From NCBI GenBank assembly GCA_020850735.1, contig JADZEE010000009.1, positions 1 through 64,000 of the forward strand: a stretch of DNA of 64,000 nucleotides. Direction: 5' to 3'. Each line of letters opens with the position of its first letter. The first letter of the stretch is position 1. The stretch comes from Gammaproteobacteria bacterium (GTDB lineage: Bacteria > Pseudomonadota > Gammaproteobacteria > JADZEE01). The translations under genes were made by a program, and so were the position numbers. Under the pieces are notes generated by a model. The model searched no databases and was not told the DNA's origin. It saw only the letters and a program-made list of their open reading frames with translations. Positions 8,798 through 62,198 of this stretch are shown here, in pieces.

Positions 8798-8878
8798 CCG
8801 GGCCACGCCAGCGCGACGGTGTCTCCCGGCCCGTCTCCGGCGCGGCCGCGCAGTCGGCGCATGCGGGCGCTCAGCGCG

Positions 8879-9036
8879 TGTGAGACATTCGCCCGCCGTC
8901 GCGAGATGGTTTCCGGGCGTTCCCGGCCAGGCGCGGGGATGAACAACATCGCGCGCAGCGGGCCTGTGGAAACGAATTCGGGAGTCCCCGCAATGCGACC
9001 AGGGGCGGTCGCGACAGGCGCGGTGATGGTTTCACA
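8879..9036. repeat. dispersed intergenic element copy 1 (MITE-like / structured)
   Basis: Starts TGTGAGAC, ends GTTTCACA; aligns along its length with 60771-60941. Confidence 0.85.
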
Positions 9037-9042
9037 TGGCTC

Positions 9043-9207
9043 TCAGATCTCGATCATCTCGAAATCTTCCTTGCGCGCCCCGCAGTTGGGGCAGGTCCAA
9101 TTCGGCGGCACATCCTCCCAGCGTGTGCCCGGCGCGATGCCGTCCTCGGAACAGCCTCTGGCCTCGTCGTAGACGAACCCGCAGATGACGCACATATAGG
9201 TTTTCAT
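9043..9207 (-). CDS. rubredoxin
   Basis: [18 protein letters not shown]...[25 protein letters not shown] with two CxxC motifs. Confidence 0.96.
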
Positions 9208-59140: not shown

Positions 59141-60550
59141 CTAGACGCTGTAGTACATGTCGTACTCGACCGGGTGGGTGGTCATGCGGATGCGCGTGAC
59201 CTCGTCCATCTTCAGCTTGATGTAGGCGTCGATGAGGTCGTCGCTGAACACGCCGCCGGCCGTCAGGAAAGAACGGTCGCGGTCGAGGGCGTCGAGTGCC
59301 ATGTCGAGCGCGTGACACACGGTCGGGATCTGCTTCTCCTCCTCCGGCGGCAGGTCGTACAGGTCCTTGTCCGACGCCGGACCCGGATCGATTTTGTTCA
59401 AGATGCCGTCCAGTCCGGCCAGCATCATGGCCGCAAAGGTGAAGTACGGGTTGCCGGCGGCGTCCGGGAAGCGCACTTCGATGCGACGTGCCTTGGGGCT
59501 GGAGACCCAGGGAATGCGGATCGACGCGGAGCGGTTGCGGGCCGAGTAAGCAAGCATGACCGGTGCTTCGAAGCCGGGGACCAGGCGCTTGTAGCTGTTG
59601 GTGGAAGCGTTGGTGAACGCATTCAGGGCGCGGGCGTGCTTGAGAACGCCGCCGATATACCACAACGCAAGATCGGAAAGGCCGCCGTACTTGTCGCCGG
59701 CGAACAGGTTCTGGCCACCCTTGGCGAGCGACTGGTGTACGTGCATGCCGTTACCGTTGTCGCCGACCAGGGGTTTGGGCATGAACGTCGACGTCTTGCC
59801 GTAGGCGTGCGCGACGTTGTGCACACAGTACTTCAGGATCTGCAGTGAGTCGGCCCTCTTGACGAGGGTGTCGAATCTGGTGCCGATCTCGCACTGCCCG
59901 GCGGTGGCCACCTCGTGGTGATGCACCTCGCACTCCAGGCCCATCTTTTCCATGGTGAGCACCATCGCCGAGCGCAGATCCTGCAGCGAATCGACCGGCG
60001 GCACCGGAAAGTAACCGCCCTTGACGTTCGGCCGGTGGCCGATGTTGCCATCCTCGTAGGCGCGCTCGGACGACCAGTCCGCTTCCTCGGATTCGATCTC
60101 GTAGAAGCAGCCCTTGATGTCGGCGCCCCAGCGCACGCTGTCGAACACGAAAAACTCCGGTTCGGGACCGAAGTAGGCCGTATCGGCGATGCCGGTCGAT
60201 TTCAGGTAGACCTCCGCCCGTTTGGCGAGGGAACGCGGGTCACGCTCGTAGCCCTGCCCCGTCAACGGTTCGAGCACGTCGCAGCGCACGATCAGCGTCG
60301 GCTCCTCGAAGAAGGGGTCCAGGACCGCCGTGTCGGCCTCCGGCATGAGGACCATGTCGGACTCGTTGATCCCCTTCCAGCCGGCGATCGAAGAGCCGTC
60401 GAACATCTTGCCCTCCTCGAAGAAGGACGCATCGACCGCGCGCACGGGCAGCGTGAGGTGCTGCTCCTTGCCGCGCGTATCGGTGAAGCGAAGGTCGACG
60501 AACTTGATGCCTTCGTCCTTGATTCGCTTGAGAACGTCGTCAGCGGACAT
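59141..60550 (-). CDS. glnA: glutamine synthetase type I
   Basis: [52 protein letters not shown] at 60548-60550. Confidence 0.98.
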
Positions 60551-60712: not shown

Positions 60713-60770
60713 GTCGAGGTCATGTCGACGCCCCATTCTAGTGCATTCGGACATCGCCGCGCTCAGATCT

Positions 60771-60941
60771 TGTGAAACATTCGCCCGCCGTCGCGAGACG
60801 GCTTCCGGGCGTTCCTGGCCAGGCCCGGGGGTGCACAATATCGCGCGCATAGCGGGCCCTACGGAAACGATCTTGGGGGTCCCCGCAACGCCGCCAGGGG
60901 CGTCCAGGAGCCGTCGCAGCAGGCGCGGTGATGGTTTCACA
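60771..60941. repeat. dispersed intergenic element copy 2 (MITE-like / structured)
   Basis: TGTGAAAC...GTTTCACA inverted ends; flanked by direct repeat GCTCAGATC at 60761-60769 and 60943-60951; homologous to 8879-9036. Confidence 0.88.
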
Positions 60942-60944
60942 AGC

Positions 60945-62198
60945 TCAGATCTGCGGCAGCACCGATTCACCGGCATACAGCGCCTCGAGCCGCTCACGCG
61001 GCCTTACCACGTGCCAGGATTCGCCGCGGATCATGACCTCCGGCGGACGCGGCCGGGCATTGTAGCTGGAACTCATCGCAAACCCGTAAGCGCCGGCCGT
61101 GCACACCGCCAGCACGTCTCCCGGTACCAGCACGAGCTCGCGTTCACGGCCGATGAAGTCGCCGCTCTCGCACACCGGCCCGACGACGTCCCAGCGACCA
61201 CGGGTCCCGGCGTGCCGTCGCTGCAGCGGGACGATGTCGTGCCAGGCGTCGTAGAGCGCCGGACGCAGGAGATCATTCATCGCAGCATCGACGATGGCGA
61301 AGCCGCGCTCGGCGCCGTCCTTGAGGTATTCCACCCGCGTGAGCAGCACGCCGGCCTCGGCGACCAGCGCACGCCCGGGCTCGACCACGATTTCCAGGGT
61401 CTCGTCCGCGAAAGCGTTGCGCACGACCTCGGCATAGGCGCCGATCGCCGGCGGCGACTCGTCCTTGTAGCGCACCCCGACTCCGCCACCGACGTCGACG
61501 TGCTCGATCCCGATACCGCCGGCGCGCAGCGCCGCGACCAGCGCGGCAACCCGGCCGAATGCGTCCCGGAACGGCTCGAGCCCGGTCAGCTGCGAGCCGA
61601 TGTGGCAGGCAACGCCCCGGACGTCCAGGTGTCCGGACGCGGCCGCACGCGCGTACAGGGCCGGCGCAGACTCGATCGGTACGCCGAACTTGTTCTCGCG
61701 CAGGCCCGTGGCGATGTAGGGATGCGTGTTCGCATCGACGTCGGGGTTGACGCGGATGGCGATCGGCGCGCGCACGCCGAGCTCTGCGGCGATCGATTCG
61801 ATGCGCTCGAGCTCGGCGGCCGACTCGACGTTGAAGCAGCGCACACCGGCCCGCAGTGCCCGGTCGATCTCGTCGGCACGCTTGCCGACGCCGGCGAAAA
61901 CGCAGCGATCGGCGCGCCCCCCGGCGGCGAGCACGCGCTCGAGCTCGCCTGCGGAAACGATGTCAAAACCCGCGCCGGCGCCGGCGAGCAGATTCAGAAC
62001 CGCGAGATTGCCGTTCGCCTTGACCGCGTAGCACACGCGGTGCGGGCGGCCCGCAAACGCCGCGGCGAAGGCCTGGTAGCGCGCCAGGATGGCGGCGCTG
62101 GAGTAAACGTAGCAAGGCGTGCCCACGGCCCGAGCGACATCAGCCAGCGCGACCCCTTCAGCGAAGAGCCGGTCGTCGCGGTACCCGAATTCGGACAT
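60945..62198 (-). CDS. lysA: diaminopimelate decarboxylase
   Basis: VCYAVKANGNLAVLNLLAGAGAGFDIVSAGELERVLAAG, HIGSQL, DVGGGVGV, ESGDF. Confidence 0.97.
   Translation of the reverse strand: MSEFGYRDDRLFAEGVALADVARAVGTPCYVYSSAAILARYQAFAAAFAGRPHRVCYAVKANGNLAVLNLLAGAGAGFDIVSAGELERVLAAGGRADRCVFAGVGKRADEIDRALRAGVRCFNVESAAELERIESIAAELGVRAPIAIRVNPDVDANTHPYIATGLRENKFGVPIESAPALYARAAASGHLDVRGVACHIGSQLTGLEPFRDAFGRVAALVAALRAGGIGIEHVDVGGGVGVRYKDESPPAIGAYAEVVRNAFADETLEIVVEPGRALVAEAGVLLTRVEYLKDGAERGFAIVDAAMNDLLRPALYDAWHDIVPLQRRHAGTRGRWDVVGPVCESGDFIGRERELVLVPGDVLAVCTAGAYGFAMSSSYNARPRPPEVMIRGESWHVVRPRERLEALYAGESVLPQI

Follow-up and report, generated by a model that had tools for sequence, protein, structure and literature searches.

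A palindromic, probably mobile repeat that lies on the stop codons of many genes in a gammaproteobacterial genome

Among the described systems that come closest to the repeat considered here, the Yersinia palindromic sequence (YPAL, or RU-2) is about 168 bp long, forms a single long stem-loop and is mobile, with many intergenic copies; its inverted repeats are internal, and it is reported to make duplications of 3 to 26 bp at dyad-symmetric sites (PMC2229807). ERIC (RU-1), which is dispersed in enterobacteria and co-transcribed with its neighbours, is 127 bp long and has a transcript that forms one long stem-loop, and ERIC elements reportedly affect how stable an mRNA is, the effect depending on their orientation (PMC2229807). 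REPs are palindromic and are often found beside or overlapping coding regions, those of the GTAG type often supplying the TAG stop codon of a neighbouring gene (PMC3733652), so a repeat that sits on stop codons has a precedent.

The segment that concerns us lies between lysA and glnA in a 64,000-nucleotide stretch (the window) of a gammaproteobacterial draft genome, a placement that the presence of glnA, ntrBC and lysA also suggests. It is probably one copy of a non-autonomous palindromic mobile repeat of the general kind to which ERIC, YPAL and Correia elements belong, moved by an enzyme and inserted in one orientation at CTCAG. An earlier note on this DNA had described it as a mobile, MITE-like insertion at the end of lysA, bounded by a 9-bp inverted repeat and by a 9-bp target duplication. 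The sequence does contain identical GCTCAGATC direct repeats, at 60761-60769 and 60943-60951, and the right one includes the last (Ile) codon and the stop of lysA, TCA at 60945-60947 being the TGA of that minus-strand gene. The neighbourhood is also as described, glnA (59141-60550, minus) being the next gene downstream of lysA on the same strand. The 9-bp inverted repeat is real as far as it goes, with TTGTGAAAC at 60770-60778 and its reverse complement GTTTCACAA at 60934-60942 (the only two places in the 64 kb with an exact match to TTGTGAAAC), but the alignment of copies gives a longer repeat of 13 bp. The parts of the lysA copy, and a second copy within the window, are as follows.

60762..60766, plus strand: left flank CTCAG, the putative target core or target duplication (TCA at 60763-60765); consensus over 95 copies C 86%, T 89%, C 95%, A 95%, G 99%
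60766..60778, plus strand: left terminal inverted repeat, GATCTTGTGAAAC here and GAGCTYGTGAAAC in the family
60766..60944, plus strand: body of the probable mobile repeat, a full-length imperfect hairpin with no credible coding capacity (from its copies, a fold z-score of -3.9 and covariation across families)
60934..60946, minus strand: right terminal inverted repeat, two bases shorter here (AAG-CTCAG, against AAGCT-CTCAG elsewhere) as judged from the copy alignment and junctions
60944..60948, minus strand: right flank CTCAG, containing the lysA stop (TGA, 60945-60947) of the ORF at 60945-62198
8870..9046, plus strand: second, more diverged copy (about 81-84% identity), its right end on the TGA that closes a short ORF on the minus strand, starting at 9043; this copy is older than the one at lysA

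A DNA search combined with end patterns found about 115 relatives of the lysA-end repeat in the 5-Mb genome (4.99 Mb in 170 contigs), bearing out the suggestion that further copies would exist; at least 40 among the matches listed were full length, with E<1e-62 and 88-93% identity to the window copy. End patterns on their own gave about 94 left and about 100 right ends, and in the retrieved loci we counted 116 elements, fragments included, of which 88 are full length. Their consensus, C-TCA-GAGCTYGTGAAAC ... GTTTCACRAGCTC-TCA-G, describes an element of about 180 bp that encodes no protein and has the 13-bp terminal inverted repeats (GAGCTYGTGAAAC and GTTTCACRAGCTC) expected of a MITE. Common ends, dispersal and lack of coding capacity likewise agree with that description, and the non-autonomous, MITE-like character proposed in the earlier note is upheld by these same-ended copies at unrelated genes and by the homologues in two other families described below. 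The host genes are unrelated apart from a single weak paralogous pair, and the copies lie behind them across the genome, single elements not forming arrays. Median identity to the consensus is 92.5% and the two most similar copies are 96.8% identical to each other, values that give no hint of recent transposition. Some copies are shortened, by internal deletions that leave about 57-90 bp or down to right-end remnants of some 30 bp. Seven copies (L072, L069, L080, L081, L101, L108 and L123) are internally deleted to about 57-75 bp with both ends kept, and are possibly a minimal mobile form.

Left-truncated copies are common and outnumber left-only ones. Truncation in the style of reverse transcription was considered as a cause of this excess and set aside, because loss of a right end would harm the adjoining gene and selection is explanation enough. 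Integron-like gene cassettes were also considered and rejected: the copies are scattered rather than arrayed, and their ends do not fit attC boxes (judged by eye, against the attC consensus).

The position of the copies, which the earlier note had overlooked together with the single orientation of nearly all of them, is their most distinctive property. An opposite-strand ORF has its stop codon exactly at the right end in 98 of 111 cases (96 TGA and two TAA), ORFs being required to have at least 90 codons and a GC3 of at least 0.6; an independent, codon-usage-based gene caller placed 96 of the 111 on stops. Orientation at stops is 98 to 1. How much of this could follow from sequence preference can be gauged from 429 kb of the same genome outside the elements, in which 231 CTCAG/CTGAG (CTSAG) sites are within genes, 59 are in stop register and 32 are elsewhere, and in which 61 of the 288 stops that lack an element (about a fifth) have the context C-TGA-G. 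Random insertion at CTCAG followed by loss of gene-breaking insertions would put about 65% of copies on stops, against 88% seen (odds ratio 4.1, p = 8e-5), and thus much of the stop bias is explained and a residual excess is left. The fixed orientation, like this residual preference, goes beyond what such targeting and loss would account for. L020 and L093, among the few copies away from any recognisable stop, also have CTCAG on both sides, and these off-stop copies, small in number, suggest that the insertion reaction is itself oriented. The idea that elements had inserted at random, truncating genes and supplying a new stop, was rejected, because nearly every stop falls in the same frame of the element, and because lysA (60945-62198, minus) matches the Pfam domains Orn_Arg_deC_N and Orn_DAP_Arg_deC over their full length.

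The supposed 9-bp target duplication did not survive alignment of the copies. GCTCAGA-C is present at the left end of nearly every copy, whatever the right flank, and CTCAGAGC is simply the left-end consensus next to TYGTGAAAC in the 95 left ends analysed, the recurring core amounting to just 3-5 bp (TCA/CTCAG). The ATC at the left end of the lysA copy derives from the element's AGC by a G-to-T substitution, which L092 and L107 share; in those two the right flank lacks ATC. On the right of the lysA copy, ATC is the last lysA codon. The left GCTCAGATC thus follows the left end of the family, and the exact repeat at lysA, which is what speaks for an ordinary 9-bp duplication by a MITE, is largely a coincidence; there is next to no chance that such a duplication took place. 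Evidently, what looks at a single locus like a target duplication, even a perfect direct repeat, may instead be the end of an element.

A shorter duplication fares better. Of 91 copies, 51 have CTCAG to the left as well as to the right, and one, L072 (contig 26), has CTGAG in both places; L072 has gone in the other way round, at the stop of the gene to its left. No other single observation speaks as strongly for the flank being duplicated target DNA as L072, which supports a true short target duplication; the duplication of 3-5 bp (TCA/CTCAG) that we infer rests mainly on this one covarying copy. Where the right flank is TTA, the left keeps TCA or TCG with no matching base, which may reflect a later change of TGA to TAA or may argue against duplication. 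In the aligned right ends, 95% of copies have C immediately before the stop and farther upstream there is only codon periodicity, so no longer target is apparent.

The consensus folds into a single hairpin over its whole length, as do ERIC and YPAL, with fold z-scores of -3.9 for the window copy and -11.5 for a homologue from another genome (G333). Across four sequences (the consensus of this genome and three foreign copies), 15 of 75 pairs have changed on both sides with pairing kept, compared with 5.8 in shuffles and 0-4 in slid structures. It therefore appears, from what is a small sample of four, that the whole hairpin and not the ends alone has been kept up in the lineages in which the repeat spread, either because mobility requires it or through template correction of one arm by the other. 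Between copies within the genome there were no paired changes (columns 10/179 are independent), which is expected of neutral decay after insertion. A conserved functional RNA within this genome was rejected on this ground and on the lack of an Rfam match: no Rfam family matched the repeat, although the earlier note had thought one worth seeking. No intrinsic terminator was found inside the element.

The repeat occurs in two of 368 other genomes of the class, G087 (84% and 81% identity) and G333 (77%), each from a different family. The three copies are complete, and each ends on the right at the TGA stop of an ORF; these ORFs have 306, 118 and 276 codons. Judged by eye, they encode UrtE-like, HypA-like and FliP-like proteins, none of which matches an element-bearing gene of the first genome, so the repeat is not bound to any given set of genes. 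The 305 kb sampled from G333 contained just the one copy, from which it seems that the repeat need not be abundant in a genome that carries it, and 168 kb from G087 contained none beyond those already known. The 35 nearest genomes compared had no copy, their sole weak match being a 26-base partial one with the end missing, and searches of plasmids, phages and viruses found none. Pattern matches to 13 records of a genome collection and one viral match were dismissed as chance, nearly all being inside genes. The 19-mer at the right end also recurs in a conserved coding stretch of many Verrucomicrobia MAGs (L140, L142-L148, L150, L152), apparently one gene family; this is coincidence, and not the repeat. 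The repeat family was not found in the open-access papers searched.

How might the repeat have moved? We suppose that an enzyme would recognise the hairpin and the GAGCTYGTGAAAC ends of this non-autonomous element of about 180 bp, and would insert it in one orientation at 5'-CTCAG-3' with a duplication of 3 to 5 bp. On the complementary strand this target reads C-TGA-G, the stop context noted above, and insertion there would restore the stop codon. Stop sites would then be harmless landings that survive, insertions inside genes being lost by selection. The transposition step and this selective loss are put forward conditionally, and a classical DDE transposase acting on symmetrical ends should insert both ways, which tells against this reading. 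The draft genome (170 contigs) was searched with profiles PF01609, PF01797, PF02371, PF00078 and PF13340. Contrary to the hope expressed in the earlier note for a transposase with matching ends, such ends were absent from the four DDE_Tnp_1, three Y1, one (degraded) IS110-type and two reverse-transcriptase loci in this fragmented draft, from which the partner may be missing, and there was no gene with PF13340 (the IS5-type DUF4096). Two of the Y1 genes, which are IS200-like (L158, L159), are bracketed by GGGGTCAG-type inverted repeats of a separate family and resemble the tyrosine-transposase genes with terminal repeats of PMC3733652. One reverse transcriptase (L160:1-1224, minus) is a group II intron maturase (RVT_1 and GIIM) cut by the contig end, its frame overlapping the end of a radical-SAM-like gene; the other (L161:1252-2229, minus; 325 aa, RVT_1, retron-like by eye) adjoins a DNA cytosine methyltransferase-like gene.

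A single-strand mechanism, in which a Y1 transposase of the IS200/IS605 or REP-associated type moves the folded strand, would explain why the orientation is fixed and why a full-length hairpin is needed, the left CTCAG then being the target and the right CTCAG the element's own end. We hold this as a tentative possibility: the genome has three Y1 genes, but none of the three has the repeat's ends, the two with recognisable inverted repeats having their own unrelated ones, and the CTGAG on both sides of L072 fits duplication better. Parentage by an IS5-type insertion sequence with a TNA target is unlikely. The ends can indeed be parsed as 13-bp inverted repeats starting GAG, with a 3-bp TCA duplication inside CTNAG, but DUF4096 and the repeat's ends are wanting as described, the fixed orientation would not be predicted, and the interior of the repeat is conserved as well as the ends.

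Selection on mRNA offers another kind of explanation, in which copies are kept at stops because a hairpin transcribed immediately after the stop protects or ends the message, selection having set both position and orientation. The fixed orientation and exact abutment to stops would suit this, as would the conservation of the hairpin across families and the greater occupancy of stops than of other non-genic CTSAG sites; the reported effect of ERIC on mRNA stability speaks for it too. However, selection of this sort would not require the element to start at the base directly after the stop; moreover, copies within the genome decay independently, left-truncated copies are common, host genes differ between families and the element has no intrinsic terminator, and we find the explanation distinctly improbable. 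It is also rather unlikely, on our assessment, that insertion is steered to gene ends beyond sequence choice (by a strand-specific mechanism that works on the folded hairpin and is tied to the point where transcription or translation finishes), or else that the hairpin serves about 2% of genes as a portable mRNA 3'-end module. If insertion into CTCAG by an enzyme is correct, as we prefer, a repeat that lands on stops and rebuilds them could be loaded into a gene-dense genome in more than 100 copies at little cost. About 2% of genes have this strong hairpin behind them, if about 98 stops are set beside a total of roughly 4,800 genes, a figure extrapolated from the 62 that were called in 64 kb.

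Comparison with known systems must be by description, not sequence, in the cases of YPAL and ERIC. The repeat is like YPAL in being intergenic, multi-copy and apparently mobile, with a similar size and one long stem-loop, and differs in its constant CTCAG site, its terminal inverted repeats and its single orientation on stops. It shares with ERIC the character of a small dispersed repeat with a whole-length stem-loop, whereas ERIC has a terminal TA and a reported 7-bp terminal repeat and the present element has no TA, a 13-bp repeat and a CTCAG site. The REP/RAYT systems (GTAG/CGTC) are similarly palindromic and often lie beside or over coding regions, and Y1 genes are present in this genome; REPs, though, are 20-40 bp long, in contrast to 180 bp here, the stop in question is TGA and not TAG, and the repeats at the Y1 loci, where there are any, are of the GGGGTCAG type, so the element does not belong with them. 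IS5-derived MITEs, which resemble the repeat in that their terminal inverted repeats begin with GAG and their duplication is short and TNA-like, provide no more than a lead: no parent insertion sequence (an IS5-type transposase gene with the repeat's ends) was found in the genome, and the fixed orientation and the conservation of the interior between families set the repeat apart. On the movement of palindromic repeats of the ERIC and YPAL kind, a question that seems still to be open, a fixed orientation combined with a covarying full-length hairpin gives a concrete handle. We would class the repeat as a new palindromic mobile repeat of the ERIC/YPAL-like kind, placed there by description and distinguished by its constant CTCAG site, the TGA rebuilt by insertion and its single orientation.
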